Part shown: positions 5,522-48,019 of the stretch, piece by piece | Position numbering within the stretch: position 1 is the stretch's first letter | Layout: every line of letters begins with the position of its first letter | From: Hexactinellida sp. DTS-2022 | Taxonomy: Eukaryota; Porifera; Hexactinellida | Assembly (NCBI GenBank): GCA_028753945.1 | Contig: JAPNXP010000001.1 | Coordinates: forward strand, 15,614,501-15,678,500 | Direction of reading: 5' to 3' | Length of the DNA: 64,000 nt | Translations under genes and position numbers: made by a program | Notes under the pieces: generated by a model | What the model saw: only the letters and a program-made list of their open reading frames with translations | Told to the model about the DNA's origin: nothing | Database searches by the model: none

Positions 5522-5639
5522 ATATAAATATTCAACAAGTAAACTAGCTATTACAAATTGTGTAGTGCAATTCAACTGAACTAAAAGACTATATAGTGAA
5601 AGAATATAGTAATACGATCTGTAGAAGCTATACATTTTA

Positions 5640-12400: not shown

Positions 12401-13147
12401 CGTCGCACTCTCCTGGATAATTCCTTGATACACACAATAGAACTCGATTAGCATACCCTCGGGGAGAAAAATTAGTCCGTATTATCCAAGTCTTCGTACT
12501 AACTGAGTTGACACAACACATGCATATAAATTGGCTAACTTTGTTTATACAAGTAGTACGTACTAACCGAGTTCTACTGTATTCTCCTGAAAAGAAACAC
12601 AAATTGAATGTCCCATTCCCATCCCATTCACGTGGGTATGGGAATCCTCATGGGAATTCCCATACCCACGGCAACCCTGTATTACACAGGTGCTTACCTA
12701 CGAGATATAAGAGAGACTCACCCCCAGCTCGTGGCAGCTGGCTAGCGCGGTCAGCAGCTGGAACACAATCCACCTCTTCTCGAGGGGCTCGAGACTCGGC
12801 AGCGAGAACATCCTCTCTGCCAGGGAGTACCGCACGAAGGGACGGATGAGGAAGGCTGCCCTGTCCGACTCCTTCCAGATAGAGAAGGGCAGCAGGTTGG
12901 GCACGGGCCCGAGCAGGTCTCGTATCAGAGACAGCTGCTCCTGGTGGTGCTTCAGGGCCAGGTTGGGATCGTGCTTCACAAGAACTTTCACAACGATAGG
13001 ACCCTCTGTGTGTCTCCCGCGGACTACTTTGAAGAACCGCGTGGACCCCAGACTCTTGAGGGGCCGGTCCACCTCTGATAGCTCCGACACGTAGTGCTCC
13101 ACTGGGAGTATGAGGGAGGGGAGGATGGCAGTGGGCAGGTTACCCAT
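9429..13147 (-). CDS. PIK3R4: VPS15 (PIK3R4) pseudokinase subunit of the VPS34 PI3-kinase complex, exons 1-3
   Basis: Three exons on the minus strand: 12722-13147 (142 codons from ATG), 11108-11299 (64 codons) and 9429-9788 (120 codons). All introns are phase 0 with GT donors and AG acceptors. The start MGN is the myristoylation-type N-terminus expected of VPS15, and [10 protein letters not shown] and [11 protein letters not shown] follow the family. Exon 2 begins [10 protein letters not shown] (catalytic loop) and continues with LTDFASFKP (the DFG-equivalent is DFA) and VAPERF. Exon 3 carries the kinase C-lobe ([15 protein letters not shown]). VPS15 anchors VPS34 and Beclin-1 for endosomal sorting and autophagy. 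The HEAT and WD40 exons are not in the window and should lie to the left, which would make the 0.6-5.5 kb transposase gene intronic. Exon 1 has a near-identical second copy at 39265-39690. Confidence 0.9.
9890..9991. mobile_element. TA-flanked MITE in VPS15 intron 2
   Basis: 102-bp inverted-repeat element with ends CAGTCGACGCCGCTTAATAG and CATTCGACTCCGCTTAATAG, flanked by TA. It is a shorter relative of the element at 34367-34551. Confidence 0.75.
10014..10300. mobile_element. CACTC-type MITE, inverse of the 8.4-kb copy, in VPS15 intron 2
   Basis: Shares its interior with 8413-8723 in reverse orientation and ends GGTTTGAGTG followed by TA. Its left end lacks the first few terminal bases. Confidence 0.55.
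11290..12420. repeat. Inverted pair of repeat R3 in VPS15 intron 1
   Basis: 11345-11560 and 12255-12420 are reverse-complementary copies of one repeat. A third partial copy lies at 9291-9400, and the duplicated block has copies at 38205-38390 and 38590-38920. Recognisable landmarks are CCTATACCGTAA and GGAGCGTCG-type segments. 11638-11779 is a separate MITE. An (AC)n tract lies near 12230-12245. No coding potential is seen. Confidence 0.55.
11638..11779. mobile_element. MITE in VPS15 intron 1
   Basis: 142-bp element with ends CAGTAGAACCTC and CAGTAGAACATCG. TA follows the right end; the left flank is TT, so the target duplication is imperfect. Confidence 0.55.
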
Positions 13148-13179
13148 GGTGCTAACGTAATATTATACGGGAAAACCTT

Positions 13180-13375
13180 CAGACAGTGAACACCCTGGGG
13201 ACCAGTAAATTTTCATTTTTGAGAGGTGTTCACCAATCATGATTTATTATAATGTGTGTCTAACTCTAAAACATTGGGAAAATTTTGGGAACCGAGAAAA
13301 GGTGTTCATATATTTTGGAGTTGTTTATTTCTTGAAGGCGTTCACTTTTGGAGGTTTAGAGCAATAATTCAGTAA
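13180..13375. repeat. MITE-like element upstream of VPS15
   Basis: Ends CAGTGAACACCC and GGCGTTCAC are inverted-repeat-like, with repeated GGTGTTCA motifs inside. The same element is at 39727-39912 in copy B, so it predates the duplication. Confidence 0.45.
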
Positions 13376-14395
13376 GCTCAGATCTGGACTGGTGTAAGCG
13401 CGTTTAGAGAAAAGCTAGAATTTGGGGCTCGGATTTCGACCCTAAATACTAGCGATTTAAGGACTCGCGTTTTACAAACGGTGAGTATATTGTTTTGCAT
13501 CCTAGAATAACAACTACCGAATATTTATGAACATCATTATATAAATATTGGGGATAAGGACAGTTCACTACAGGATAGGTGGACCATGGCCTACTATATA
13601 ATACGGCTAGATAAGTCAAGTATTTGCCATTTTATTTCCAGGCCAGTGTTTACTTTCTAATTGCTCGTAAAATAAATTACCTATTGTCTTGGAATAAACT
13701 GAACTTAGGTTTTCAAATACGCTGGAAACATCTAAAATACTTTTGAGAATGATTTCTCATCGGATTTAACCACAATGACGTAATCAAATATACATACCCA
13801 TATATGGTAATGATGTTAAATAAATGTTAATTTTTTAGATAATTTGAGAATCCAACTTTGCCGTTTTTATCCTAATGCATTTTTCTTGTTGAAAAACTAA
13901 CTACAGTAACAAATTATGCCATTCCTTTCACTCAAATTCTATTCAACGTCAATGTAAGTAAATAATTATACTATTGTTATCAAACATATGTTTTGTATTT
14001 TTTTTGAAATGTATAGTTAGATTTTAATCTAAGTCTTAAAAGTGCTGTTCGACGACGTACATGTTGCCCAGTCAGTTTAATGACCGTTCTTGTGACTTAT
14101 TTAGCTAATGTTCACTGAATCTCTACTTCAATCTCTAGTAACTATTTATTTGTTAGGCTTTGTTACCATGTTATTTAGTCACATCTTATAAACACTATTT
14201 ATCAACAATTCCTTATCAAATCCAGTTGGTATTCATTGGCCAGTTCAAAGAGATGATTTATAGTAAGAATACTAATATAGTATCATATTGTGCCACTTCA
14301 TGCACAACACTAGTTTAATCGTTGCAAACAATTTTACATGGGCGAAAAATAACGTAATATGACACACACGTAGCTTATAGTATATACGTAGTATT
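13376..14395. other. Intergenic, no gene recognised
   Basis: AT-rich. 13480-13610 matches 43848-43975 in copy B, and the remainder (about 13620-14640) has no counterpart there. Nothing coding is seen. Confidence 0.5.
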
Positions 14396-14409
14396 TAACA
14401 ATTTAATGA

Positions 14410-14625
14410 ATTTCCACTCGATTCCACTGTTCAGTCGGTTTTTAGAAAATCCACTCGATTCCACCGTTCAGTCAATTCCACTAAAATTTAGTAATTCCAC
14501 TAGATTCCACTAGATTCCACCATTCAGTCACCCTAGATTCCACTAAATTCCACTGGATTCCACTAGATTCCACTGGATTCCACTAGATTCCACTGGATTC
14601 CACTAGATTCCACTATTCAGTGTTT
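14410..14625. repeat. Minisatellite of 10-bp ATTCCACTAG units
   Basis: About 20 imperfect tandem units alternating ATTCCACTAG and ATTCCACTGG, with interspersed CGTTCAGTCA. Absent from copy B. Confidence 0.8.
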
Positions 14626-14783
14626 CAGTCAGCCCCGTATTTAGTATGTTTGAATATCTACAATTAGGAAACCCTTATTTTTCTAGTTACATGATCAATA
14701 AAATTTCTTCCTGCTTATCTCGTATTGACCCAATGTAATATGAATGTATACAACAAAAACGAAATAGTTAGATTAATGAATTA

Positions 14784-15155
14784 CCTTATTATAGGAAATT
14801 AACGCGCCATGATATTAACGCGAAGGAAATTAACGCTCCATGTAATTTAACGCGAATTGGAGCTGAACATTCTCAAATACATGAAATTAACGCGAGTAAA
14901 TTTTATAACAAAATTTCAGGATTATTAACTCCTGATTTAATATTATTATTGTGCCCAAATAGGCTTCCAATCTACTTGATAGACATGGTATATCCTCTCA
15001 AACTAGTTGCACATCTAAAAATATGTAGCTCGGAAGTTTGTCCATCCATTGATTGTATAATTTTGTTAAATAGCAGGAAATTAAGGTCATGGAAATTAAC
15101 GCTCCATGAAATTAACGCGATTTGGAGAAATTCGCGTTAATTTCCTATAATAAGG
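14784..15155. mobile_element. MITE with TA target duplication, absent from copy B
   Basis: 372-bp element with perfect 12-bp ends CCTTATTATAGG / CCTATAATAAGG continuing into AAATTAACGCG arms, flanked by TA (14782-14783, 15156-15157). The copy-B site near 44290 reads straight through GAATTATAATT, an intact empty site. The motif AATTAACGC recurs inside. Confidence 0.9.
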
Positions 15156-15403
15156 TATAATTTTCTACAAAGTATGTTTTTTATTAGATATATACGTACA
15201 TAGATGTAGCAGAGATTTAAATATCTTCAAAAGTTCTAGTAATTTATGGATATTTTTCTTCTGGAGATTTCAAGGAATTTCATGACGATTAAAATGTGTT
15301 GTAATATTTAATCCACCCATGGTTGCATAGATCATTTAAACTAAACGAGAAAATCCGGACCGAAAACGTCTGAAATATTCGGTCGGGGGGACCAAAATGC
15401 AGA

Positions 15404-15700
15404 CCAGGTGTCATAGTGCCAGCGGTCCCCCCTAACCTATTGCACTAGGGCCAGATGTCCCCCCAGGACCTATGGCTCTAGGGTCAGATGTCCCCCATCA
15501 GGGTCAGATGTCTTCCCTCAGAAACCTCACACTAGGGTCCCAGAACAATAAATTTCACAATGCACATCACTATAGTTTCATATTCTACATTAAAGTAGTC
15601 CGATTTGGGGACATCTGACCCTAAGGGGGACAGCTGACACTAGGGCTACAGGTCGGGGGGACAGCTGACACGGGGGGACCGCTAGCACTCCGACACCGGA
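15404..15700. mobile_element. MITE inserted in copy A only
   Basis: About 297 bp with imperfect inverted ends (GTGTCATAGTGCCAGCGG versus GTGTCGGAGTGCTAGCGG) and G/C-tract interior repeats. Copy B near 44545 lacks it and runs continuously across the site. Exact ends and target duplication are uncertain. Confidence 0.7.
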
Positions 15701-15715
15701 CCCCAACAATGCAAT

Positions 15716-15845
15716 GTCTTTCTAAGGATCATGATCTGTGTACTTCCTAAGGATCACGATCTGTGTACTTTCTGAGGATCATGATCTGTGTACTTTCTAA
15801 GGATCATGATCTGTGTACTTTCTAAGGATCATGATCTGTGTACTT
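15716..15845. repeat. 24-bp minisatellite, about 5 units (copy A)
   Basis: Tandem units of CTAAGGATCATGATCTGTGT plus ACTT. The homologous site in copy B (44575-45112) has expanded to more than 20 units. Confidence 0.9.
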
Positions 15846-16241
15846 TTTGTTACCTCCCAAGTAAGGGATATAACGGTCTGGATCGATCCAATATTTTGAT
15901 CATACGGTCTGGACCGTACAGAAATAATCAATGACGGTCCGGTTCATTAAATTTCCGGACTGCTGCATCTCTGGTCCCCCTGCCTCCCAAAATCGACTGG
16001 AGCAACTGATAACACCGAAGACATGCCTTGTCGCACATTAAATTGTTTGTAGCATCTTTGTATTTATAGCAATATATTTGCTGTGATTTTGAAAAATGTG
16101 ATTTTGGAACACATAGCATGACAAAACGGTTCGACAGCACTTAACTTAAGTATCTGCACAAGAATGTTCATGTTGATGTCGAGTGTGAACTCGTTACAAG
16201 TACTTTTCCCCTGAATGATGATTGATGAATTATGCCTTGTA

Positions 16242-16618
16242 CAGTGGCGGCGCCAGGGCGCCGCCCCTGGGGGGGCACCAGGTGGGCAAACCTGAACCCA
16301 GGGGGGGCACACCTTTTTAGAAAAAAACGCAGGAATTTATAGTCGCCGTCGAGATTCGAGAATCCACATATTTTCCCAGTAAAGTATAAAAAACTAATCC
16401 CAATTTGCCCAAAACTCCAAGAATCGCAAGCCGTTCGCATTTCAAACTGGTGGATCTTGTTGTTCATGTTCAAATATTGTTCATATTTCGCTAAAAATAT
16501 CTGAGAATATTTGTTTTCCAAAGAATCTTTCAAAAGTGTGCCCCCCCTGGCGGGGGGGCACCATTTTCCTATGGGGGGGGGCACGTGCCCCCCCTGGCCC
16601 CCCCTGGCGCCGCCACTG
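16242..16618. mobile_element. hAT-like MITE with perfect 8-bp target duplication
   Basis: 377-bp element with ends CAGTGGCGGCGCCAGG / CCTGGCGCCGCCACTG, flanked by GCCTTGTA at 16234-16241 and 16619-16626. The corresponding sites in copy B (about 45490) and at 37670 are empty. Members of the same end-family are at 25991-26148 and 48020-48144. Confidence 0.92.
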
Positions 16619-16802
16619 GCCTTGTAATTGATTATTCCTTCATATTAAAGTTGTTGCTAATAAATTATGTACTTACTTTACATTCTATGGAGTGGGGAGT
16701 TTCAGGCTACGTACCATGCTTTTAAAATCTCTAGCAATGTCCCTGCACTATTACAAAGTAGACTCAAACCCGTGACCAACCTTTGGTAAGTTAAGTTTTA
16801 AG

Positions 16803-16912
16803 CCTGCGATTCCCAACCATTTAAACCGTGGAAACCCTATAGTAATTCTGTGGACCCCTCCCATTGACCGTAATACATCTTGTGGACCACAAGTTGGGAA
16901 CCACTGCTTAGG
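16803..16912. mobile_element. Small hAT-like element, shared by both duplicates
   Basis: Ends CGATTCCCAACC and GTTGGGAACCACTG are inverted repeats. A copy is present at 45707-45811. At 37868-37890 only its left end survives, and that is where the duplication junction lies. Confidence 0.6.
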
Positions 16913-17048
16913 AAATATCTTGCAAGATAAGCTTCCATGTCGTTCTGGAAAATCTGAGCAAACTTTTTGTAGATACAAATTCAAAATGGCAACAAATTCA
17001 TTAAAGTAAATTATTAATAAAATTTAGCATATTAGAAAATATACTCCT

Positions 17049-18210
17049 TTAAGTTGCATAATCTATGTTGTGTTTGTTTATCATCTTTTCAATCAAATCA
17101 GAACGAAATGAATACTTTCGACTCTTCATCGCTTTCTTTATATTCTTCATAAAGTAAAAACCCGTTAAGCACAAATAGGGAACCGTAATGATCAACAATG
17201 CCAAACCCATAGTGCCGCCTAAAATCATAACCAAGATTTGATCAACACTCAGTAGCACCCAATTATCCCATCTTACGAAATAGTCCATTGACACAGGTAT
17301 GTTGTATACACGGTTAAACCATTTCGGGTTGGTTAGAACGGTTAATACGATTGGATACAAGCCTTCGATAATGAATGCGATTAAATGAAAGAATAAAGAA
17401 GTTAACACGACTGTGGCACCGATTTTAAATTCGAAGTGTATTTGTTTGTAATACATAACTACACTAGTATGATGGTTCTCGTGGAAGCGGGCATCAAAAT
17501 ACCTTTGGTACAATAGCCGACAGAGTTTCTGAGACAACCTAATCAACCTAATATACTCATAGAAGAATAGGAATACTCCAACAACACGCTGGAATATCAA
17601 CAGCTGGACGACAGAGCTCAATAGCATAATGACTAATATTTTAACGCCGAGACGAGTAAATCCATGACAAACAGGATGCTTGCACTTCGATGGATAGAAA
17701 GTGTAGCATTCAATGAAACACACTGTTATCATAGTGATAATGTCAAGCATGGAAATCACGACAGAGATTAAAAAAACCTAACAGGAGTCTGTAATGGATT
17801 GAGATCAGATTTTGAAAATTATATATGAACGGTTGTAAGAAATACATATGGATTTGATAATTGATTGTATTTCTTGAAAATGAGTATCCCCACACTGAGA
17901 TTACGGTGACCGATACTACAATCTCAATGATGCACAACAGAATCAGCAAGAAATTTGTAGTCCGTTTTAATTTATAGATCCTTTCGATGCAATTCCACTT
18001 GTTACTATCCATGATATACCTACTCTTAAACTGATACTTAAAGCTTTTCGAATTAGAATACACTTGTGATACTAAAATGACACACCAGATTATGGATAGA
18101 ATGGCCCATAGTGAGAGAGAGAGAAACCCCACGAAACCATAAATGTGTGAGAACTTGAGTGATATGGCATTCAGGATATCAAAGGTTTTTTCTTGCGTTG
18201 ACTTGTTCAT
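17049..18210 (-). pseudogene. Multipass membrane protein, copy A, frameshifted
   Basis: Two minus-strand frames (17743-18210, then 17049-17759) together match copy B along its length. The break is an A-run near 17770, seven bases here against six in copy B. Read through the break, the product would be about 386 residues with six to seven hydrophobic helices. The C-terminal tail (ending DYAT) is intact here, whereas copy B is frameshifted there. I do not recognise the family. Topology and length are compatible with a lineage-specific receptor or channel-like protein, but no diagnostic GPCR motif (DRY, NPxxY) is visible. The shift could be real decay or an assembly error in a homopolymer. Confidence 0.7.
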
Positions 18211-19988
18211 GATATTACGCGAGACTTATTTCCATGTGTTCTATAAACTATTTATACTTGTTTGCAAGTGACTGATAACTATTAAAATACTATGCATAAT
18301 GGTCTGACATAACTATTAGACACACATTCTATCAGTGTAGGGAAGGTTGAATTTATGAAATTGATTCCTCTTCAAACATGCCTTAAGCAATTGTTATGTG
18401 GACTGAAAATGGATACTCAGTAAATTTTGCTTAATCTCTTTAGCTTCGGGGAAAAGGTTAACCAAATATTGTACTATTTATTCAGCACATATTAGACATA
18501 TTTTATAGCTGCATGGAATTCTGCAGGAATTCTCCAGACCATTTTTTTGTGGTTATAGATATCCATGGATATTGATAGATTTCCAAAACCTACATCAACA
18601 AAATATTCAGAAGACTGAATGTTGTACACAGGGTTCTCGCCAGGATTTTTGTTGTAAGGGTACATGAGAGTGAGATAAGAAGTGATAAAATATTATATGG
18701 TGTCATCGATGTTACTTTTTTTAATACTTATGTAATGTGTATAAGTTTGTCTCCACTAGCTTTCACTGCACTACTTTTAGCTAACTTGCGCTATGCCACC
18801 AAATAAGAAGATGAAGACTACAGATGGCCAGCAAAAGCTTAGCTTTAGTCTAGAACTGATTTCACCTGTTCCAGTAACTAGTATGAGCTCTACTGCTACA
18901 GCAGACTGCACAACTGACTCAAGACAACCGCTAGAAGAATCAGAATGTAACATTTTGATGAATACGACAACGCGTAGGGGGAATGTAGTTTCCTGGCGAG
19001 CCTTTGCTGACAGAAAGTGGCGTGATAAGCATCCCTGGCTTCAGCTAAAAGAGGATGGGATCTATTGTCTCTACTGCTCCCATGATACATTGAAAACTAG
19101 GACCAAAACACAGGTTTTTGTAACTGAACCGTTCACTGGAAACAGACCCGACAATCTCCTACAACACGAAGGCTGTGCTGCATATGAAGCATGTGCTTTT
19201 GCCTAACATGAGGGAATAGTACGGGTAGCAACAAAGCAGACAGTAATGGAGGTCATTGAAAATGTTAGCATACTTTACACTTGATGAGGTTGCTTTTCAG
19301 GATGCCCTATGATGCATATACTTTCTGGCAAAAAAGGAAATACCACACACAACTTACTTTGCAGATCTAAAGGAGCTAAGCATTCCGCTTGGTAATAGAA
19401 CATTGCCAGATCTTGTCAAGGGGAAGAATGCAAATTATCAATCCGAAAGTATCATGCTGAAATGGTTCAGGCAATTGATGTTACTCTGGAGGAAAAATTA
19501 TTGGAAGATATCAAGAAATCTCCATATTATTCATTAATCATGGATGAGGCAACTGATATCTCAGTGACCAAACAACTTGGATTGTGTGTTCAATACCTTG
19601 GTTCGGATGCTGAGGTACAAACAAGAAATCTGAAATTGCTTGAAGTGACTCAGGGAACTTCTGATGTTATAACAGATTTGATTGTAAATACCTTACCTGC
19701 AAAGCACCTATAGTACTAAATCTTTCTCAGCTTGCAGGTGGTGCTTGTGATGGAGCCGCCGTCATGGTTGGTGCCCACTCTGGCGTAATAACTCGTTTGA
19801 AAGAACAGGTACCTAATTTCATTGCTACCCACTGTGTAGCTCACCGACTTTCCCTTGTCACCTACAATGCACCTGAGAAGTCACGTCTGGTGAAAAGATT
19901 CCAACATACAAGGAATGAAGTGTATTTTTATTTCTCCAGAAGCACCGTCAGAACAGCAGCACTAAGGGAAATGGAACAGGCTTTAAAT

Positions 19989-29834: not shown

Positions 29835-32800
29835 CTAAATACTTGTACCCGTAATATCAATTTCATCTCTCATGCCATAAGTTAAGATAGAGCTGTATAT
29901 CATTGACTTTACAGGCTCGAAATGATTTCCAAAGTTGGTAATGTAAATTGAGGGCTGATTTATCTCAATATCAAAAGATGCTCGCAGTAAACTCCACCGT
30001 ATTCCTTTGGTACCATCTTCAGTTATGTAATAATTATTTGCGACATAAATATCAGTTTGCAATATTGATGCAAACGCAATTATTTCAACATCCCCACCCC
30101 AACAGCCCTCAATAAATACAGAATTTTCATTCATGATGTATTTGCACGGTGTTGTTTTCTTTTGGTGAAAGTACCATGCTAGTTGGCTTGTACCTTTGCT
30201 GGCGATGAAATTAGCAATAAGTGAACGAATTTTCAGAAGACTATCTTGGTTCCCAGTTAGTATTATTGAAAAACATCGAAATAAACAGTTGCCATCTCCT
30301 ATTACTGTGTATGTTTTCCCTGGCATGTATTTGGATAGCGGTTCTCCTATCCCGTAAACTGGCTGATCTGATTTCGATTCAAATGGTAATTTTAGTGATT
30401 TGCATTTTTCTTGCTGCCACGTCTCATCTATAACCAAAATCTTTGGATTTATTTCAAATTTAGGTAAATTAGTGGAAAATCCATCTTCAAAAGTCTCCCA
30501 TATCATTTTATTGAGATATTCCATTGCCTAAAGAATACAGCATTAGGAGATAAAGTTATGGAGATATGTAGGTGTAATTATAATCTCAATTACTTACAAC
30601 TCCATATAAAACTTTATCAGCATACTTAGCACATTTATCACCATCTTCGTTATGTAATAAGTCATCTGTCCAGTTGAGGAGTATTTTTCTTATTTCAGAT
30701 TTCTAAATTGAAGTAATTTTTTATGAATACAAGTGACATGTAACTGAAACCAATCTACTTCAATCTTGGACAATAATAAGATTGTTCATTTGTGTTTGCA
30801 AAATAATTGAGTAGTGTATTGATGCCATTAAGGACTTTCGGACACCCACTGCATCTAAGATCCTTAATATATACTACATACATTTATATAAACGTAGTTA
30901 CATTTATACGTATATAGTTCGGGATACGAATTTCTTATTCCCAAAATCTAAAATTCAATATTTGTTGATGCTACAATAAAATTTGAATGTACTAAATTAT
31001 AAGGCAAGAGTTCACACCATTTTTTACTTTAGTAACACATTAGTTTATTAGATTGGAATTTGGATCGAGGGCCGCAACACGATAATAAAATTTCCCCAAG
31101 ACAGATAAAATTTAATTTCAAATTGATACAAAACATGAAATTTATCAAACAGTATGGCTAAATATTCTATCACATAATATTATTCAGATGGGCCCATATT
31201 TGCTCCGATGGGCCGTATTTTGGGGACCCAGATTAAAACTACCGAGAAATTTAAATCAGATATTCGTTAATAATCAAGCAACTCGTATCTCAAAATAAAG
31301 AAGTCCCTCACCAGTTCATTTTCGTTAGAATCTTGTAAAAAATAAAAAAAGTACGTATTGGGTACACATAGATGGAATCTGTTGAGATTTCGATGTAATT
31401 CTCGGTGTAGCGTCGTCAGAAATGTACTTGCATTGACACATTGTTGAAGCAATGGCTAGATGGAAACAACAACGATTATACTAAGTTTAATTTTAGTGTA
31501 GTTTTGGATTGATATATACCTTTAGGTCAGCGATGTGTTTAAGGATGTTTTCTCTTGAAAATCCAAAGACGTTATGAGAATACTACAAGAATATGTTTTA
31601 CAAAAGATTTTCGTGCAATTTAATGAAAAAGATAACTAAGAATGTACCTTGGATTTTTTCAAAGTTTTCGTTTTTCTTTGTTGTAGGTGGTGTAGCGAGG
31701 TCTTTAAATTCTGTTTAGATATGGTTGGATCCTTCTCAATCTATCAATAAAAAATTGTATAAGTATATCTATATAATTGTATAAAGAAAAGAAATAACCC
31801 ATTAGAAACCATTTACCTTGCTAAATCGTTGTAGATACTTTCTAGTCAAATGTATGGGAAACTTCTTTATTTGAGATTTCCCTTTCTTTTCTATAATTGC
31901 ACATACATGACTATCTGTTAGTTTTTTTACTTTAAATGGACCGAGGTGTTTTGATTGTTCTTTTGTACCAGGAAGATGCTTCAATTTTCCGATATTTTGG
32001 ACGAGGATCGAATCACCCTCTTTGAATTCCGATCTAAAATATATAAAATAATAATGATTCTTTAATACAAAACTATATACTATTTACGAGTACTCTGGGG
32101 TTTTTATTATTTATTAATACTATAGATATGAAATACTTACCGATTTTTAACTACTTTCTTATCAAATATTCTTTTTTGCCGTGACTGTTCTAATTCAATT
32201 TTCTTTTTAGCTAACTGTAGATCAGATGTCCGACGATTAAAATCTTCACAAATCAATTCTTTCATTTTGATTTCATTCTCCGTTAATATGTTTGAATCAA
32301 TTATTACACTTTCATTCGTGTCTGATTGTTTTTCGTTACAATCATTCGACATGGTCAGGTTACTTGAATACGATTTAATCCAGTTCAACAAATTGTCTGA
32401 TTGACAGTCCCTCCCAAACATGAGTCTAAATGGTGTAAACCAGTGGATTGTTTTATCTGTGTATTGGCTGCGAAAACAACACTCTGTAACTTCGGGGGCC
32501 AATCTCCACCAGATTCTTCTCTCACTTTCTGAATTTTACTAAAATTATAATTTATTCATAAGAAATCACATCTGTGACAAAATAACTATTCGGCAATAAT
32601 TACGTTTTGATGATTTTGTTCTGAGATTCAACGAGTCCATTGCTCTGTGGGTAATAAGGACGTGTGCTACGATTGTCGACTTTGAGATCCTCATGAAACT
32701 CCTTGAATTCCTAAATTGAGTTTTTAACAATTGTAAGTTTTCTTAGTTATTATTTGCTATTGCAATTGTATTCTAGGAATACGTAACACCTCATTCATTT

Positions 32801-36840: not shown

Positions 36841-37314
36841 ATAGAAACAATTTCCATAAAGCGGAAGTTTGAAAAGTTTGGCGGGAGGTCGGGAGGATGG
36901 GAGAGAAAAAAGGCAAAAAAAGCGGGAGTCTCCCGCCAAAGCGGGAGGGTTGGCAACCCTGATAATATTATTTCAAATGAGCCACTTTTTTGAGCCATTT
37001 ACCTAAGCCACTTTTCGGAAAGATACCTTACTCTCGCACTTGAAATTAGGGGAAACGATTGTCCCCCTCCGGTCCGCTTATTTACAAGTGCGGTCTGGAC
37101 CGGTCCAAATTATCGATTTAACGGTCTCGACTGGTTCATTTGGTTTGGACTCATCCTAGATTGGACAAACGATCAGGCTCCAATCTGTTATTGCCCATGG
37201 TTTACAAGCACATAACTGACATAAGTAATAAGTATCTTATAAACACAAGTGCATATAATTAGCCACTCTACTATGCAGTCTGGAACCGTCCAAATAATGG
37301 ATATAAAACGGTCT

Positions 37315-37889
37315 GGACCGGTCCAGACGATCCAATATTTTGATCATACGGTCTGGACCGTCCAGAAATAATCAATGACGGTCCGGTTCATTAAATTTCC
37401 GGACTGCTGCATCTCTGGTCCCCCTGCATCACAAATCTACTGGAGCAACTGATAACATCGAAGACATGCCTTGTCGCACATTAAATTGTTTGTAGCATCT
37501 TTGTATGTATAGCAATATATTCGCTGTGATTTTGGAAAAGTGATTTTTGAACACAATAGCATGACAAAACCGTTCGACAGCACTTAACTTAAGTATCTGC
37601 ACAAGAATGTTCATGTTGATGTCGAGTGTGTTACTCGTTACAAGTACTTTTCCCCTGAATGATGAATGATAAGTGGCATTTGATTATTCCTTCATAGTAA
37701 AGTTGTTGCTAATAAATTATGTACTTACGTACTTTTACATTTTATGGAGTGGGGAGTTTCAGGCTGCGTACTATTTTTTTTAAATCTCTAGCAATGTCCC
37801 TGCACTATTACAAAGTAGACTCAAAATCTAGGTCCCGTGACCAACCTCTGGCAAGTTAAGTTTTAAGCCTGCGATTCCCAACCTTTTTA
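37315..37889. repeat. Partial third copy of the satellite-proximal segment
   Basis: Matches 15870-16830 and 45140-45720 but lacks the 24-bp satellite and the 16242 MITE. It ends inside the small hAT-like element (CGATTCCCAACC), and the next base pairs match 11950, giving an end-to-start junction. Confidence 0.8.
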
Positions 37890-38671
37890 ACCGTGGTGTA
37901 ATATGTGTAATACGCAATACGTAAGCTAAATATACAGGAATATAGCGAATATACTAAGTACTAGTTGTATGTGGAATATAATGTACAATAATCGTTTTAT
38001 GCGATAGTTAACTTATTTTACAGTTATAATACTATCTCTATCCCTCGTCATGTAATATTATTTTCCGTTCTAAACATACCATTTTTCATTTGTCCTATAA
38101 ATAATAGTCACGTGTAATACGTTATACGCGAAGGAGAATTCACGTATTATAAAACTTTGACTGTACTATATACACACACACACCAGTGTATTATACACCC
38201 ATTTGTAAATACGCTCCTAATCCTGGTATGATCCAATTTTCATACACCTAAATTACAAATTAATGTTACGGAATAGGAGAGGATTCCAAATTTTTGCGTC
38301 CTAAATTCAAATTTTCCAAAAATCATACTCCAAAAAGGAGCGTCGAACGCTCCTGGATAATTCCTCGATGTACACAATAGAACTTGATTAGTATACCCTC
38401 GAAAAGAAAATTTAGTCCGTATTATTCAAGTCTTCGTACTGAGTTGAAACAACACATACATTTAAATTGGCTAACTTTGTTTGTACAAGTAGTACGTACT
38501 AACCCAGTTCTACTGTATTCTCCTGAAAAGAAACACAAATTGAATGTCCCCCGACAACCAACGAGAGTACACTGTAGAGAGTACTCACCCCAAGGAATTA
38601 TCCAGGAGCGCGAGACGCTCCTTTTGGAGCATGATTTTTAGAAAATTTGGAATCCTCTCTTATACCGTAAC

Positions 38672-38838
38672 CAGTACCGTAGCCATCTTTTTTATTCGGG
38701 GGGGGGCAAGGTAATTCCAAACCCATAGTCCTTTGGGTTTTCCACTGATTTGGATTTATATATATATAATTGTAACTAATGAGCAAATATTTCGGGGGGG
38801 GGGCATGGCCCCCTTGGCCCCCCCTGGCTACGCCCCTG
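38672..38838. mobile_element. hAT-like MITE, perfect 8-bp target duplication
   Basis: 167-bp element (ends CAGTACCGTAGCC / GGCTACGCCCCTG) between ACCGTAAC repeats at 38664-38671 and 38839-38846, inserted into an R3 repeat copy. Confidence 0.9.
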
Positions 38839-38926
38839 ACCGTAACATAAATTTGTGATTTAGGAGATGAAAATTGGATCAGACCAGGATTAGAAGTGTA
38901 TTTACAAACGGCTGTATAATACACCA

Positions 38927-39222
38927 GGGTTGCCGTGGGAGTGGAATTTCCATTCCCATAGGATTTCTGTGGGAATTCCCATACCCACGGGAATGGGATG
39001 GGAATTGGAATCAGATTTCCCATATGGGAATTCCCATGTGAATCATTTGCAACTTTCCACACATACAAATAGGCTGCTATAACAATTCAGAAAAACCGGC
39101 TTTGTTCACTTGTATTGATATCCATAAGGGTTTCCTATGGTGATCCCCACAGGGGAAATCTGATTCCCATTCCCGTGGGTATGGGAATCCTCATGGGAAT
39201 TCCCATACCCACGGCAACCCTG
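38927..39222. mobile_element. MITE with CAGGGTTGCCGTGGG ends
   Basis: Inverted ends CAGGGTTGCCGTGGG / CCCACGGCAACCCTG around repeated TGGGAATTCCCAT palindromes. Flanks TAATACAC / TATTACAC give a 7-of-8 target duplication. A shortened remnant is at about 12610-12685 in copy A. Confidence 0.8.
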
Positions 39223-39264
39223 TATTACACAGGTGCTTACCTACGAGATATAAGAGAGACTCAC

Positions 39265-39690
39265 CCCCAGCTCGTGGCAGCTGGCTAGCGCGGTCAGCAG
39301 CTGGAACACAATCCACCTCTTCTCGAGGGGCTCGAGACTCGGCAGCGAGAACATCCTCTCTGCCAGGGAGTACCGCACGAAGGGACGGATGAGGAAGGCT
39401 GCCCTGTCCGACTCCTTCCAGATAGAGAAGGGCAGCAGGTTGGGCACGGGCCCGAGCAGGTCTCGTATCAGAGACAGCTGCTCTTGGTGGTGCTTCAGGG
39501 CCAGGTTGGGATCGTGCTTCACAAGAACTTTCACAACGATAGGACCCTCCGTGTGTCTCCCGCGGACTACTTTGAAGAACCGCGTGGACCCCAGACTCTT
39601 GAGGGGCCGGTCCACCTCTGATAGCTCCGACACGTAGTGCTCCACTGGGAGTATGAGGGAGGGGAGGATGGCAGTGGGCAGGTTACCCAT
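39265..39690 (-). CDS. Duplicate VPS15 exon 1
   Basis: Encodes exactly the same 142 residues as 12722-13147, including MGN start and GTGAGT donor. I see two base differences in the 426-bp exon (CAG/CAA and ACA/ACG codons), both silent. No exon 2 follows within copy B, so on its own it would give a truncated N-lobe. It could act as an alternative distal first exon spliced about 28 kb downstream to exon 2 at 11299, or be a very recent pseudo-exon. Flanking intron sequence has diverged more, mainly by indels. Confidence 0.85.
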
Positions 39691-40122
39691 GGTGCTAACG
39701 CAATATTATACGGGAAAACCTTCAGACAGTGAACACCCTGAGGAGTGACAGTGTGGACCAGTAAAATTTCATTTTTGAGAGGTGTTCACTTTTCATGATT
39801 TATTATAATGTGTGTCTAACTCTAAAACATTGGGAAAATTTTGGGAACCGAGAAAAGGTGTTCATATATTTTGGAGTTGTTAATTTCTTGAAGGCGTTCA
39901 CTTTTGGAGGTTTAGTGTAACAGAGCAATAATTCAGTAAGCTCAGATCTGGACTGGTGTAAGCGCGTTTAGAGAAAAGCTAGTGATTTAGGCCGGGGAGC
40001 CCGAATTAGCTAAGGGGTTTGTGGACTTAAGGTTCGACCCGCACGATGAACAAGGAGCCTAATTCACTGGAATTTGGGCTCGGATTTCGACCCTAAATAC
40101 TAGCGATTTAAGCCATATATTA

Positions 40123-40310
40123 AAAAGTACATACAACATGTAATATAAGTACATACAACATGTAATATAAGTACATACAACATGTAATATAAGTACATAC
40201 AACATGTAATATAAGTACATACAACATGTAATATAAAAGTACATACAACATGATGTAATATAAAAGTAAAAATCTAAAAGTACACATACAACAGGTAATA
40301 TAAAAGTAAA
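40123..40310. repeat. Subterminal 22-bp tandem array, left
   Basis: About eight units of AAGTACATACAACATGTAAT plus AT. The inverse array is at 43653-43835. Confidence 0.9.
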
Positions 40311-40894
40311 ATATTTTATTTTGAAAAGAAAACCTAATCACATGAAGTGAATCAAGGGATCTTCCTTAGGGTCCTCTTTTCTGCAGAGAATACTGAGACA
40401 AAAACAAACATAAAATAAATTAGAACAAATAAATGGCTAACAAGAAATTGCTGAAGATTAAAAGAGCATTGAGCTCCAGGTTTGATACTTCAGGAAGTGT
40501 TCGGAAATATGGAAGAAGTAAAGAAATAATAATGGTAAAATACAATATTATTATAATAAGTTGAAAAGATGGATGGTATCTCAAGAAATTTAGTGGAGAA
40601 AAAAGGGAATGTTGCGAGTTGCGACTGAGTTATTAAGTTAAGGCGAGATGTCCCCGGTGAATCAATTATTTCCTTTGATTATATATGTTTAGCTTAATAG
40701 AAGTAGAGAATTAAAAAGCTCTGCAAGATGTAAGCAAAATAACTTTTGAACAGAGATGTTCGCCCTAAGAATATAAAAATTAGTTCTGGAGTCCAGGATA
40801 TCATTTGTTGAGTGTTATTGAAGCAACTTTTGTGAACATTTTTCAATGTTTGTTTTATGAAGTTTTGATGATAAGTTTATTTTTGATCTTGAAC

Positions 40895-41015
40895 AGTGTT
40901 TGATCTGAAGAAGAAGAGTGTTTGATCTGAAGAAGAAGAGTGTTTGATCTGAAGAAGAGTGTTTGATTCGAAGTGTTTGATTTGAAGAAGAGTTTTTGAT
41001 TTGAAGAAGAGATTA
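40895..41015. repeat. 24-bp tandem repeat 5' of NRF1-like gene
   Basis: Five to six imperfect units of GTGTTTGATCTGAAGAAG(AAGA). Located 110-230 bp before the first ATG of the NRF1-like frame; could be promoter or leader sequence. Confidence 0.75.
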
Positions 41016-41128
41016 TATATAAATTGATTGATTTGAGAATCGATTTGCAAAAGCCAAAAGATTGATTTGATGAATGATGATCCTCCCTTACTATTATCTA
41101 TGATTGATTTGAACTCCTAATTAACTAA

Positions 41129-42476
41129 ATGATTCATGACTGTTCCCTGCCGCGGCGGAAGCAGTTACGATATGACAAATCTTTCTGCTTGCTTCAACTT
41201 AGAACTATACATATTGTCATGCCTCGTATGACAGCAGCCAATGCGAGGCAGATGCTGGCCGCAACATTGAAAAATTTCAGACATGTGACAAGAGAAGCTG
41301 TCGGAGCAGTATTTACATGGAAAGGGAGTTTATCTATATTGGGCACAGCTCAATACCAAAGTTATGTTTCAGATAACAAGGATTCGATATGGCGAAAGCT
41401 GATTACACTACCTGAAAAGAACTTGCCAAAGCCTGACCATGATCTCGAGCTGATGGAGTTGCTACAAGGCGATATAACAACTTATAGCGTCCCAACCCTC
41501 AGAAAACTTGTTTCATGGGTGCTGCAAAAGTACACTGGTATGTGATATAGTAGACTCTAAGTAGAGCATCAGGATTGTACGAACACAATCGGGAGCTTTT
41601 CTGATAATCGAAGAGGGATTTTTCACTATTAATCGGAATTGAGATCGCGATCAATTCTTTTTGCGATCGACTAAACCCTTACAATTAGACTTATGCATGA
41701 CATATGTTAAATATTACAGTTATTTGAGAGTACAGTCAACATCCGCTATTTCCAATGCCCGTTCACTCGAATATTCACTAATTTGAACAAATTTATTTTC
41801 TCGTTGGAAACCCCTCAAATCCGTTCATTAACTTCCGCTATCTTGAACAGATTTTGATTCCCCTGAAGGTTTGAGGTACCGGATGTTGACAATAGTTTAT
41901 CTTATCTCTTATTAATAACTCTCAGGTAAATCACGAAACATTTGGAGCTCTCCTCCACCACCTTGGTGGCTGAAGGATGTCCCCTTCAAGAGCATCTTCA
42001 AAGAAAAATACAATAAAAAAACTTTGCAACAGTTACTACAGTCGTACCAGTCCTTTACGAGCTTTGGGTTGCAAGCAGAGGATCCAACACTAATGGATAA
42101 TATACCTGAGCCAATGGATAATACACCTGAGCCAATGGATAATATCCCCGAGCTAATGGATAATCATACCTATTCTATTTCATCCCAAATATCAACTCAC
42201 TCAGATCCTATACAAGTTGAAGGAGATGTAGACATTGATACATCTAGTGAATCTTTTTCCCCCCAGTTAAGTGAATCTCTCAAAAGGCACCCGGAACAGA
42301 CTTATGATATATCATCCCCTTCACCAAGTATCGCACAATTATGTGGAGTAAAGCCTCTCCTTCCACTTGTGACTATGCCGCCTCGTATTTTGTCCGAAAA
42401 AATTACATCCACTTGCTTATCGGAGCTCGCATCTCCCGACATATTTTTGACAGATGTAACTATCAACGCGTTTTGT
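41129..42476 (+). CDS. NRF1/P3A2/EWG-like DNA-binding protein, two exons, inside a transposable element
   Basis: Exon 1 41129-41537 (an internal ATG at 41219 gives MPRMTAAN) and exon 2 41926-42476, joined by GT-AG with the split codon restoring Gly. Across the junction the product reads LRKLVSWVLQKYTG, then KSRNIWSSPPPPWW and LKDVPF. This layout (leucine-rich helix, K-x-T-G, W, then P-x-WW-x-D-(V/I)-P) mirrors the end of the nuclear respiratory factor 1 DNA-binding region. Exon 2 then has three MDN(I/T)PE repeats and a Ser/Pro-rich tail and ends at a GTAAGT donor, so a further exon is likely but was not found. The element may use it as its own DNA-binding protein, or the gene may be captured. 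Homology is judged from memory of the motif and needs a profile search. Confidence 0.5.
41733..41893. mobile_element. TA-type MITE in NRF1-like gene intron
   Basis: Left end CAGTCAACATCCGCTATTTCC-like after TA; right end CGGATGTTGAC is diverged. Lies between the two exons just before the acceptor. Confidence 0.55.
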
Positions 42477-42837
42477 GTAAGTGTGTGCCCGAGTTTGTTG
42501 AATTTAACTTGCATAATTCGAAATAGCAATGGCTCTATTAGCAAATATTTGTTTTGAAATTAGCATTTAATCATAATTTTGTTCCTATAATAGCACGTTT
42601 GGCTATTAGCAAGCAAATTTCATGCAAAATAGGACTTGCTATTCCCGAACCCAAATTTATTTGCTAAATTTCAGCTGTATCTTACAAGTTAATTCATAGG
42701 AAATTCTAAAGAACAGTTACCCTAAGGTGATAGGGCTACAAGATACAATTCTATCTCAGGTGAGCATTATTAATTACAGCATGCAATCTACTGTTTGCCC
42801 TATCCTGTTTCTATTACAAATTAGTATCAATATACAG

Positions 42838-43017
42838 GTAAACCTCCCAAAGCGGCACCTCCGAGTAGCGGCAACCTCCGAGAAGCGGCACAAAATCATT
42901 CTCCCGATGGGTGCCGCTTTGGGAGTTTTACCTTACGAGCAACCTCCCAAAGCGGCAACCTCCGAGAAGCGGCACAAAATCATTCTCCCGATGGGCGCCG
43001 CTTTGGGAGGTTTACCT
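42838..43017. mobile_element. TA-flanked MITE (pogo-like ends)
   Basis: Ends CAGGTAAACCTCCCAAAGCG / CGCTTTGGGAGGTTTACCTG with TA flanks. The body is an internal direct duplication containing CACAAAATCATTCTCCCGAT twice. Confidence 0.85.
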
Positions 43018-43231
43018 GTACCCGGTTCTTAAATTTTGATTACTATTCGATACCCGGGTATGAATAGCTTCTAACCCGGTATTACATTTTTTCAATGGGA
43101 CATTAAATATTAAATTGAATTCGTAGTCAGCATAATTGTTACCCATTTGGAAATATGCAAAAGACAAATTTCCAATGTATCAGCAGTAGTGGTGGTAGTA
43201 AGACTGCAACTACATGAATCTAATCTCCGTA

Positions 43232-43360
43232 CAGTCGGCCTATTCAACCCCCAGAGCACTAAATACATTAATTATTATCCGCTTAATCCGCTTAACGAAT
43301 ATCCGATATAACGAAGGAATTTACAGGTCCCAAGCACTTTGTTATAACGAGAGTTGACTG
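43232..43360. mobile_element. TA-flanked MITE, relative of 7659-7824
   Basis: Right half (GGTCCCAAGCACTTTGTTAT to GAGTTGACTG) matches the 7.7-kb element; the left end is diverged. Confidence 0.6.
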
Positions 43361-43497
43361 TATACATTTTATCAAATACTTGGGTATAGGGAACAAAAAA
43401 TCGAGAGATGTTAAAAATTTAAGATTCGTCTGACAGCCTACTTAATATGTGGTATGTACTTTTATATTACATGTTGTATGTATGTACATATATTACA

Positions 43498-43652
43498 CAG
43501 GGGTTTTTTTCAAGGCCGATCTTGGTGTAAATTTTGCACCAAGATTTTTTGGAGTTACACCACGATTCGGATCGGCCGCGGCCGCTGTAGTTTTGAGTTA
43601 CACCACGGCCCCGCTGAGTTACACCAAGCTCTCAACCTAAAAAAAACCCCTG
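43498..43652. mobile_element. hAT-like MITE splitting the right 22-bp array
   Basis: 155 bp with ends CAGGGGTTTTTTTCAAGG / CCTAAAAAAAACCCCTG and TATTACA on both sides (43491-43497, 43653-43659). The interior has GAGTTACACCA repeats. Confidence 0.85.
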
Positions 43653-43835
43653 TATTACATGTTGTATGTACTGTTATATTACATGTATGTACTTTTATAT
43701 TACATGTTGTATGTACTGTTATATGACATGTATGTACTTTTATATTACATGTTGTATGTACTTTTATATTTCATGTTGTATGTACTTATATTACATGTTG
43801 TATGTACTTATATTACATGTTGTATGTACTTTTTA
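43653..43835. repeat. Subterminal 22-bp tandem array, right
   Basis: About eight units inverse to 40123-40310. Two further units lie at 43446-43490, before the inserted MITE. Confidence 0.9.
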
Positions 43836-44574
43836 ATACCTCATTTAAGGACCCGCGTTTTACAAACGGTGAGTATATTCTTTTGCATCCTAGAATAACA
43901 ACTACCGAATATTTATGAACATCATTATATAAATATTTGGGATAAGGACAGTTCACTACAGGATAGGTGGACTATACCAGTTATCAGGGATGCCAACCCT
44001 AGACACCAAAAAGCGAGAGGTTTTGCCATTATGGCGGGAGTTTTACCAAAAAAAAAGGGGAGGTCGAAAATGAAAAAAACGGGAGAAAAGCGGGAGACTC
44101 AAAATATGCTATTTCTTTGAATCTATCATCAATAGAACGTTTCAATATCAGTATTTAGTACGTTTGAATATCTACAATTAGGAAACCCTTATTTTTCTAG
44201 TTATATCAATCAAATTTCTTCCTGCTTATCTCGTATTGACCCAATGTATGCAATAATACAACAAAATCGAAATAGCTAGATTAATGAATTATAATTTTTC
44301 TACAAAGTATGTTTTTTTATTAGATATACGTACATAGTATTAGATGTAGCAGATTTAAATATCTTCAAAAATCTAGTAATTTATGGAGATTTTTCTTCTT
44401 GAGATTTCAAGGAATTTCATGACGATTAAAATGTGTTGTAATATTTAATCCACCCGTGGTTGCATAGATCGACATATAAACTAAACGAGAAAATCCGGAC
44501 CGAAAACGTCTGAAATATTCGGTCGGGGGGACCAAAATGCAGACCCGGAGCCCAACAATGCAATGTCTTTCTAA

Positions 44575-45112
44575 GGATCATGATCTGTGTACTTCCTAAG
44601 GATCATGATCTGTGTACTTTCTAGGATCATGATCTGTACTTCCTAAGGATCATGATCTGTGTACTTTCTAAGAATCATGATCTGTGTACTTTCTAAAAGA
44701 TCATGATCTGTGTACTTTCTAAGGATCATGATCTGTGTACTTTCTAAGAATCATTATCTGTGTACTTTCTAAAAGATCATGATCTGTGTACTTTCTAAGG
44801 ATCATGATCTGTGTACTTCCTAAGGATCATGATCTGTGTACTTTCTAGGATCATGATCTGTACTTCCTAAGGATCATGATCTGTGTACTTTCTAAGAATC
44901 ATGATCTGTGTACTTTCTAAAAGATCATGATCTGTGTACTTTCTAAGGATCATGATCTGTGTACTTTCTAAGAATCATTATCTGTGTACTTTCTAAAAGA
45001 TCATGATCTGTGTACTTTCTAAGGATCATGATCTGTGTACTTCCTAAGGATCATGCTCTGTGTACTTCCTAAGGATCATGATCTGTGTACTTCCTAAGGA
45101 TCATGATCTGTG
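44575..45112. repeat. Expanded 24-bp satellite with higher-order structure
   Basis: More than 20 units of the monomer seen five times at 15716-15845. Variant monomers (AAGAATC, AAAAGATC, AGGATC, CATTATC) recur in the same order with a period of about 225 bp (blocks begin near 44593, 44818 and 45041), so blocks of monomers were duplicated together. Confidence 0.92.
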
Positions 45113-45947
45113 TACTTTTTGTTACCTCCCAAATAAGGGATATAACGGTCTGGATCGTCCAATATTTTGATCATACGGTCTGGACCGTCCAGAAATAATC
45201 AATGACGGTCCGGTTCATTAAATTTCCGGACTGCTGCATCTCTGGTCCCCCTGCCTCCCAAATCTACTGGAGCAACTGATAACATCGAAGACATGCCTTG
45301 TCGCACATTAAATTGTTTGTAGCATCTTTGTATGTATAGCAATATCTGTGATTTTGTAAAAGTGATTTTTGAACACAATAGCATGACAAAACCGTTCGAC
45401 AGCACTTAACTTAAGTATCTGCACAAGAATGTTAATGTTGATGTCGAGTGTGAACTCGTTACAAGTACTTTTCCCCTGAATGATGAATGATGCCATGCCC
45501 TGCATTTGATTATTCCACCATATTAAAGTTGTTACTAATAAATTATGTACTTACTTTACATTCTATGGAGTGGGAGTTTCAGGCTGCGTACTATGCTTTT
45601 AAATCTCTAGCAACGTCCCTGCACTATTACAAAGTAGGGTCAAAATTTAGGTCTCGTGACCAACCTCTGGCAAGTAAAGTTTAAGCCTGATTTTGATAGT
45701 TGCGGGCAGCGATTCCCAACCTTTTCAATCGTGGACCCCCTCCCATTGACCGTAATACATCTTATGGAGCCCCTACAGTCGTGGACCCCAAGTTGGAAAC
45801 CACTGCTTTAGGGAATATCTCGCAAGATAAGTTTCCATGTCGTTCTGGGAAATCTGAGCAAACTTTTTATAGCTACAAATTCAAAATGGCAACAAATTCA
45901 TTAAATAAATTATTAATAATATTTAGCAAATTAGAAAATATACTCCT

Positions 45948-47107
45948 TTAAGTTGCATAATCTGTGTTGTGTTTGTTTATCATCTTTTCAATCAAATCAG
46001 AACGAAATGAATAGTTTCGACTCTTCAACGATTTCTTTATCTTCCTAATAAAGTAAAACCCGTTAAGCACAAATAGGGAACCGTAATGATCAACAATGCC
46101 AAACCCATGGCGCCGCCTAAAATCATAACCAAGATTTGATCAACACTCAGTAGTACCCAATTATCCCATCTTACGAAATACTCCATTGACACAGGTATGT
46201 TGTATACACGGTTAAACCATTTCGGGTTGGTTAGAACGGTTAATACGATTGGATACAAGCCTTCGATAATGAATGCGATTAAATGAAAGAATAAAGAAGT
46301 TAACACAACTGTGGCACCAATTTTGAATTCGAAGTGTATTTGTTTGTAATACATAACTACACTCGCATCATGGTTCTCGTGGAAGCGGGCATCAAAATAC
46401 CTTTGGTACAATAGCCGACAGAGTTTCTGAGACAATCTAATCAACCTAATATACTCATAGAAGAATAGGAATACTCCAACAACCCGCTGGAATATCAACA
46501 GCTGGACGACAGAGCTCAATAGCATAATGACTGATATTTTAACGCCGAGACGAGTAAATCCATAACAAACAGGATGCTTGCACTTCGATGGATAGAAAGT
46601 GTAGCATTCAATGAAACACACTGTTATCATAGTGATAATGTCAAGCATGGAAATCACGACAGAGATGAAAAAACCTAACAGGAGTCTGTAATTGATTGAG
46701 ATCAGATGTTGAAAATTATTTATGAACGGTTGTAAGAAATACATATGGGTTTGATAATTGATTGTATTTCTTGAAATTGAGTATCCCCACACTGAGATTA
46801 CGGTGACTGATACTACAATCTCAATGATGCACAACAGGATCAGCAAGAAATTTGTAGTCCGTTTTAATTTGTAGTTCCTTTCTATACAATTCCACGTGTT
46901 ACTATCCATGACATACCTACTCTTAAACTGATACTTAAAGCTTTTCGACTTAGAATACACTTGTGATACTAAAATTACACACCAGATTATGGATAGGATG
47001 GCCCATAGTGAGAGAGAGAGAAACCCCACGAAACCATAAATGTGTGAGAACTTGAGTGACATGGCATTCAGGATATCAAAGGTTTTTTCTTGCGTTGACT
47101 TATTCAT
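45948..47107 (-). pseudogene. Multipass membrane protein, copy B, 3'-frameshifted
   Basis: Open from ATG 47107 to a premature stop at 46037 (356 residues). Hydrophobic helices near residues 25-49, 86-110, 142-168, 187-220, 262-290 and 315-347, with a basic loop about 221-261 (RLSQKLCRLLYQRYFDARFH). A run of four A's near 46056, against five in copy A, shifts the frame after LTGF, replacing the roughly 35-residue charged tail that copy A keeps. All six helices are retained, so a shortened protein is conceivable. Family unknown. Copies A and B are very similar and each carries one homopolymer indel, at a different place. Confidence 0.7.
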
Positions 47108-47541
47108 GATATTACGGGAGACTTATTTCCATGTGTTCTATAAACTATTTATACTTGTTTGCAAGTGACTGCATAAGGATCTGACATAAATAATAGACAC
47201 ACATTCTATCAGTGTAGGGAAGATTGAATTTATGAAATTGAATCCTCTTCAAACATGCCTTATGGAATTGTTATGCGACTGAAAATGGATACTCAGTAAA
47301 TTGTTGCTTAATCTCTTTAGCTTACTTGGAAAAGATATTGTATTTATTCAGCACATGCTGGGGACTCATTATTTTACCATAGCACAATTGATAACTAATT
47401 AATTTTATTATACATATTTATAGCTACATGGAATTCTGCAGGAATTCTCCAGAACATTTTTTTGTGGATATGGATATACATGGATATTGATAGATTTCCA
47501 AAACCTACATCAACAAAATATCCAGAAGACTGAATTTTGTA

Positions 47542-48019
47542 CTATATATAGACAAAGTTCGTCAATATCGGTATAAGCCTTCATGTTTTTTCGCCATAGC
47601 CTTGTTTTTTTTTTAAGAGAAAATAGTATAGCAAGTAGGATAAATGAAAAAGTAATATATAAAATTAAGGCAAGTAAAATTATTCTGGAGTGACCAAAAA
47701 AATTAAGACTAGTAAATAAAATTTAATAGACGGAAAGAAATAAAGCGTGTAAAAAATGAAGTCAAGTAAAATTTAGGTGAGTAAACTAATTGGGGGTAGG
47801 ACGGAAAAACTTAGGCGCATTAATTTTACACTCATTTTTAGAACCCTTGTTTGAAATATTTTCAAAAGTTCAATTATGAAATGGATTTCCACAATATCCA
47901 TGGATATGACAAAAACTCGATATCCATGGATATCCATATCCACTGCAAGCCTGGTATTCTGTTGAGTTCATATCACAAACAGATATTTGTTTGACTTTTA
48001 ACCAACCTTATAGCTGAGT
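47542..48019. other. Intergenic, no gene recognised
   Basis: AT-rich. TTTCCA(C/A)AATATCCATGG-like motifs near 47890 echo 18560 and 47470. Nothing coding is seen. Confidence 0.4.

Follow-up and report, generated by a model that had tools for sequence, protein, structure and literature searches.

Results

A duplicated segment carries an inserted element in one of its two copies

The stretch of DNA analyzed here, 64,000 nucleotides of Hexactinellida sp. DTS-2022 (assembly GCA_028753945.1, contig JAPNXP010000001.1, positions 15,614,501 to 15,678,500 of the forward strand; hereafter the window), contains a segmental duplication spanning several kb, with copy A at approximately 11955-18627 and copy B at approximately 37290-47542. 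Comparison of the two copies, which are 89-96% identical over the longer matched pieces, revealed an inserted element of 3,730 bp in copy B (40113-43842, + strand) that carries mirrored tandem arrays at its ends and a spliced gene whose product may be related to the DNA-binding region of the transcription factor NRF1. The element is bounded by ATTTAAG on the left (40106-40112) and on the right (43843-43849); copy A, at its empty site (13455-13461), has ATTTAAG only once, in matching context. The left flank is 96.2% identical to copy A over 818 columns and 95.7% over a further 47, the right flank 97.0% over 133 columns, and a separate indel of approximately 85 bp distinguishes the copies on the left side of the element. 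Precise insertion with a target duplication and an empty site is as expected of a DNA transposon with inverted repeats. Given that the flanks diverge from copy A by 3-4%, the element is most likely younger than the duplication; the alternative, that copy A precisely lost the element together with one ATTTAAG, is much less likely.

An earlier, sequence-only reading of this locus had proposed a clean insertion in copy B with an empty site near 13462, and the comparison bears this out. Its position for the element also holds, although the range given (40106-43849) took in both duplications. The duplication had been described as TTAA-centred; TTAA does lie within it, but the longest perfect duplication around the element is the 7-bp ATTTAAG. 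In comparison with the TTAA-specific superfamilies (piggyBac and Kolobok), TTAA is placed inside a 7-bp duplication, and the adjoining sequence is unmirrored.

Mirrored arrays of a 22-bp unit form the ends

The left end (40113-40310, + strand) begins with the tip CCATA, followed by TATTAAAAAG and by an array of seven 22-bp units, the inner ones degenerate. The right end (43441-43842, - strand) is built of ten units, split by a nested insertion, and finishes in the tip GAGG when read inwards. The unit, AAGTACATACAACATGTAATAT, is strung head-to-tail on the left, and its repeats on the right point the opposite way. Allowing up to three mismatches, the unit matches 12 times in the 64 kb, always within the element, against a mean of 0.00 over 100 shuffles, and mirrored arrays of 22-bp units are accordingly as first described. 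Cutting at GTAC yields 17 units in all, several of them degenerate, and the arms of the arrays are complementary at 99% over 84 nt and over 75 nt. Short tandem repeats in inverse orientation thus serve as the ends, in the manner of foldback-like elements.

A single spliced gene occupies the interior

Between the arrays, the two longest stop-to-stop frames, which encode 212 and 138 amino acids, are both + strand frames. When 40311-43440 was shuffled with its dinucleotides preserved, 212 amino acids were reached in 1 of 1,000 shuffles and a 138-amino-acid second frame in none of them, the mean maximum being 98. The frames are joined by a GT-AG intron (intron 1, 41538-41925, + strand, GTATGT...CTCTCAG) across which the reading frame is continuous. 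Exon 1 (41219-41537, + strand; open frame 41129-41542) comprises 106 codons and one base from the first ATG of the proposed product, whilst exon 2 (41926-42476, + strand) carries the motif WWLKDVPF and then a spacer in which a 21-bp repeat keeps the frame. The element therefore holds one spliced gene, as had been suggested.

A candidate second intron (42477-42699, + strand, GTAAGT...CATAG) would lead into a tentative exon 3 of 20 codons (42700-42759, + strand), in phase and followed by the donor CAG/GTGAGC. This exon is statistically weak: 42477-43440 contains 110 open AG..GT segments between 30 and 300 nt long, of which five have a GTRAG donor, exon 3 among them, and three of these five end at one common donor. 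The joined end piece of exons 2 and 3 resembles what we take to be the start of a Ulp1/SENP protease domain, a likeness to which Pfam, PDB sequences and NCBIfam gave no support; neither the 46-amino-acid nor the 54-amino-acid end piece had a match. The region bearing the catalytic His, Asp, Gln and Cys of such (C48) proteases was sought in 42760-43842, where none of the three forward frames contains HW or DCG. Hence, if the product was a Ulp1-like protease, its catalytic part is missing from this copy. Beyond exon 3 the gene seems to break off, so that the element in copy B probably represents a deletion derivative.

No transposase is recognizable in this copy

A Pfam search (E up to 1) with all 44 open reading frames (ORFs) of at least 40 amino acids in the element found no transposase family: a first set of 33 brought up 16 families, no transposase among them, and the other 11 brought up none. 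Nor did the Pfam matches of the product and the 44 ORFs include a P-type transposase with a THAP domain. The element in its present state consequently shows no recognizable transposase of its own that would mark it as autonomous, in keeping with the sequence-only reading. As the gene is apparently cut off, however, this absence describes the present copy and not its family.

The spliced product bears a faint resemblance to NRF1

In a Pfam search at E up to 5-10, the sole family listed for the spliced product was Nrf1_DNA-bind (PF10491; E 0.35 and 0.36), and a 112-amino-acid core (residues 39-150) matched it at E 0.047. Against PDB sequences the core had three matches, the top two of which were the NRF1 chains 8k4l (E 0.19) and 8k3d (E 0.34). 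When 102 residues of an NRF1 chain were used as the reference for a specific scoring test, the core scored 14.3 bits and the best of 20,000 shuffles 10.3 bits, a comparison conditional on the NRF1 family having been picked after the motif was noticed. Scored singly, exon 1 reached -1.9 bits and exon 2 4.0 bits; the match appears only when the exons are joined at the predicted splice, which counts in favor of the likeness. Among the ORFs of the window, the best score (4.3 bits) belonged to the open frame of exon 2 itself, and the best independent ORF, within a Vps15-like gene, reached 3.9 bits.

In a hand-made alignment, 11 of 40 residues in the best-matching core are identical to human NRF1, and these include R206 and W224. 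In the human protein R206, N242 and R244 are base-reading residues and W224 is a backbone contact (PMC10810270).

Searches for relatives

The collections searched for relatives consisted of viral and prokaryotic records, so a lack of matches there is scarcely informative on animals. Viral contigs gave at least 120 matches to a DNA pattern encoding WW..DVPF, and none of the matches listed had an NRF1-like look when read in frame. These were dominated by one phage-like family with the conserved context YRRSLAELLISTG-WWPPDVPFD, apparently a small protein widespread in phages and present on many IMG/VR contigs. Two of the 120 viral contexts listed scored 14.0 and 12.9 bits against the domain of the element, values that we discount because these contexts were chosen for sharing the WW..DVPF string. 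The narrower pattern WWP[KE]DVPF gave four matches in bacterial metagenome-assembled genomes, none in an NRF1-like context, and none in viral contigs. A PF10491 search of one bacterial genome and 14 control genomes found no match and was uninformative.

Other features of the element and its surroundings

Two further insertions are nested within the element. The right array is split by 155 bp (43498-43652) with tips CAGGGG...CCCCTG and TATTACA on both sides, presumably a hAT-type miniature inverted-repeat transposable element (MITE). A palindromic insertion (42835-43018) with the terminal inverted repeat CAGGTAAACCTCCC and TA on both sides we take to be a MITE of mariner type. Upstream of the gene, a second short tandem array (40891-41011) with 19- and 22-bp units of the GAAGAGTGTTTGATCTGAA type is unrelated to the end arrays.

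The duplicated segment starts with exon 1 of a Vps15/PIK3R4-like gene, the copy A exon of which matches PIK3R4 chains at E 1.9e-30. The element is situated approximately 0.4 kb upstream of the start of this exon in copy B (near 39165-39982); copy A is without it. A tandem array of a 25-bp unit (CTTTCTAAGGATCATGATCTGTGTA) comprises 22.2 copies in copy B (44567-45118) and 5.2 in copy A (15718-15846), and thus gained or lost units after the duplication. Copy B also carries a receptor-like, hydrophobic frame of 361 amino acids (46037-47122, - strand) with no confident Pfam family, whose counterpart in copy A (17049-18225, - strand) is split into two overlapping frames.

Elsewhere in the window, a 1,692-amino-acid open frame (578-5656, - strand) combines a transposase domain of Mutator type (E 1.6e-55) with a PHD finger at its C terminus (E 2.9e-4, under the Pfam cut-off). 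Neither long inverted repeats nor the 22-bp unit were found near this gene, and the 64-kb window as a whole contains no second array of the unit. Another frame (29835-30527, - strand) encodes an OTU-type cysteine protease (E 2.1e-9), a domain known on some transposon proteins. Rfam returned nothing at gathering scores in the window.

Discussion

Our analysis places an insertion, its 7-bp duplication, the mirrored arrays and a gene with long spliced frames at a single locus. To account for these together, we tentatively favor, with a confidence somewhat short of even, a non-autonomous foldback-like DNA transposon whose gene encoded a diverged NRF1-like DNA-binding helper for the end arrays. On this view, the element inserted as a unit into copy B once the segment was already present twice, and ATTTAAG was duplicated on its entry. 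The N-terminal part of the product would be a very diverged relative of the NRF1 dimerization and DNA-binding region; a Ulp1-like protease part, which this copy would have lost through truncation of a longer gene, may have come after it. The DNA-binding part would most likely have recognized the 22-bp units at each end of the element and assisted in bringing the ends together, whilst the cutting and joining would fall to a transposase that an autonomous relative at another place in the genome provides in trans. Reading of the arrays by the product would have a precedent in the P superfamily transposon Galileo, whose long foldback-like ends contain tandem repeats with several binding sites for the THAP domains of its transposase (PMC3688188).

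Kinship with NRF1 is the part of this explanation that the similarity weakly supports. We rate the kinship itself somewhat better than even, and we treat the resemblance as a lead rather than as demonstrated homology. The sequence-only reading had seen an NRF1-like layout in the gene and had looked to the NRF1 DNA-binding profile for its confirmation. What stands of this is a colinear match that beats all 20,000 shuffles and a profile search in which no other family was listed; what does not is significance by the family's own standard, as the PF10491 scores of 11, 13.8 and 10.9 bits are under the curated Pfam cut-off of 23.5.

Several further observations weigh against an NRF1-like helper. 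The first set of 33 ORFs brought up 16 unrelated families at E 0.02-0.35, and four of the 16, at E 0.02-0.04, are lower than the 0.047 of the NRF1 core. Since junk ORFs reach such values, an E of 0.05-0.36 by itself proves nothing. Against PDB sequences, the full 316-amino-acid product had NRF1 only fourth of eight, and in the NRF1-specific test the full 310-amino-acid product scored 11.2 bits, hardly above the best shuffle. Only one of the three base-reading residues is kept, with N242 replaced by S and R244 by F in the hand-made alignment, and the backbone contacts G220, G223, S245 and D246 are not retained. A fold model of exon 1, built for that exon only and from one sequence, had a mean pLDDT (predicted local distance difference test) of 69 and matched no NRF1 structure; it had no match among PDB structures at E up to 0.001, the candidate domain being one that spans the splice junction. 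The other four models had mean pLDDT values of 39-44. Additionally, the element is seen in one copy only; the 310-amino-acid product had no relative in viral contigs (seven pattern stretches, none confirmed), in the genome contigs collection (59 pattern stretches, none confirmed) or among phages by tblastn, and a 39-base piece of the array had no match in viral contigs.

The ends themselves raise two more objections. The outermost 4-5 bases (CCATA on the left; GAGG on the right, read inwards) are not mirrored, and mirroring starts only at TATTAAAAAG, 4-5 bases inside, so that the inverted repeat stops short of the tips, which is unusual for such an element. The second concerns the CATG/ACATGT palindrome within the 22-bp unit, which would suit the retained R206. 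Some 6-bp palindrome is found in 2,312 of 5,000 shuffled units, which is chance level, and the palindrome is therefore no evidence for an NRF1-type site. If the NRF1 likeness is real, the loss of the GC-reading N242 and R244 would fit an A+T-rich target such as the unit.

The strongest rival holds that the element is an internally deleted copy of a known superfamily (Mutator/foldback, P/Galileo or a Ginger-like element with Ulp1), its gene being a remnant or an accessory and its likeness to NRF1 convergent or coincidental. A Mutator transposase with a PHD finger does lie elsewhere in the window, but the 22-bp unit is found nowhere outside the element, the surroundings of the Mutator gene included, and no remnant of a transposase was detected in the 44 ORFs. 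Target duplications of Mutator elements measure 8-10 bp, whereas the one observed here is perfect over 7 bp. Coincidental likeness, moreover, sits uneasily with an NRF1 score above all 20,000 shuffles. As to the ends, foldback-like repeats and 7-bp duplications are both known from Galileo (PMC3688188, PMC3573991). Ulp1 domains have been described in Ginger1 and Mutator elements (PMC2836005); the 4-bp duplications of Ginger1 differ from that of our element. The tentative exon 3 may resemble a Ulp1 domain, which would speak for this rival. On balance, derivation from a known superfamily appears somewhat unlikely, yet it is the foremost competitor of the helper model.

A second possibility is a genuine gene that has no relation to NRF1 and whose WW-x-x-D-V-P likeness arose by chance. 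The Pfam E-values of junk ORFs are of a similar order, and the WW..DVPF string is present in unrelated phage and bacterial proteins, two of whose listed contexts score as highly as stated above, though they were selected for that string. Chance would, however, also have to produce a match that is colinear beyond the motif, that needs the splice and that none of 20,000 shuffles attained. We consider chance likeness unlikely. Capture by a transposon of a piece of the host NRF1 gene (pack-type capture), which the sequence-only reading had set beside use of the domain by the transposon itself, seems very improbable. Transposons are established to capture pieces of host genes, and some resemblance to NRF1 does extend across the splice junction. 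Sea urchin P3A2 and fly EWG, however, are described as sharing significant similarity with human NRF1 in both of its domains (PMC10810270); with only 11 of 40 residues identical in its best core, our product is far less like NRF1 than these animal relatives are, which makes a recent capture unlikely, and an old, functionless piece should no longer keep frames that shuffles do not reach.

It is tempting to extend the helper model beyond this locus. Undescribed animal DNA transposons may read repeated ends via an NRF1/EWG-type region joined to a protease-like part, in which case NRF1, otherwise an isolated family among animal transcription factors, and a transposon protein would have a common origin, whichever of them gave rise to the other; we hold this broader view to be rather unlikely at present. 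Many transcription-factor families derive from transposon proteins, ZBED, CENPB and THAP being examples, and NRF1 is not named in the available portion of that account (PMC10027918). Within the open-licence PMC literature we found no paper tying the NRF1 DNA-binding region to transposons. The mode in which NRF1 reads DNA was called novel in its structure paper, and its origin would become testable if family members of the element confirm the link. Such confirmation would also document a type of helper new to transposons, one that reads their ends, and the rare NRF1 DNA-binding fold may serve transposons also.

Ginger1 and the Ulp1-bearing Mutator elements are akin to our element in that transposon proteins carry Ulp1 or OTU cysteine proteases, the likeness of the tentative exon 3 to the start of a Ulp1 domain being presumed; unlike them, the element has no integrase-like or Mutator transposase. 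It differs from Ginger1 further in its duplication and its start, which in Ginger1 are CCGG or CCGT and TGTNR, respectively (PMC2836005). With the NRF1/EWG/P3A2 family (PF10491), the product shares L-R ... T-G ... W ... W-W-x-x-D-[VI]-P in colinear arrangement, together with R206 and W224; in contrast to that family, it remains far under the Pfam cut-off, has N242 and R244 replaced and is encoded within a mobile element, where a protease-like part may be joined to it. Galileo encodes a transposase bearing THAP domains, neither of which was found in this element, whose tips moreover are unmirrored. Galileo, with its 7-bp target duplications (PMC3573991), and the foldback-like transposons are at the same time like the element in their internally repetitive inverted ends and in a target duplication of 7 bp.

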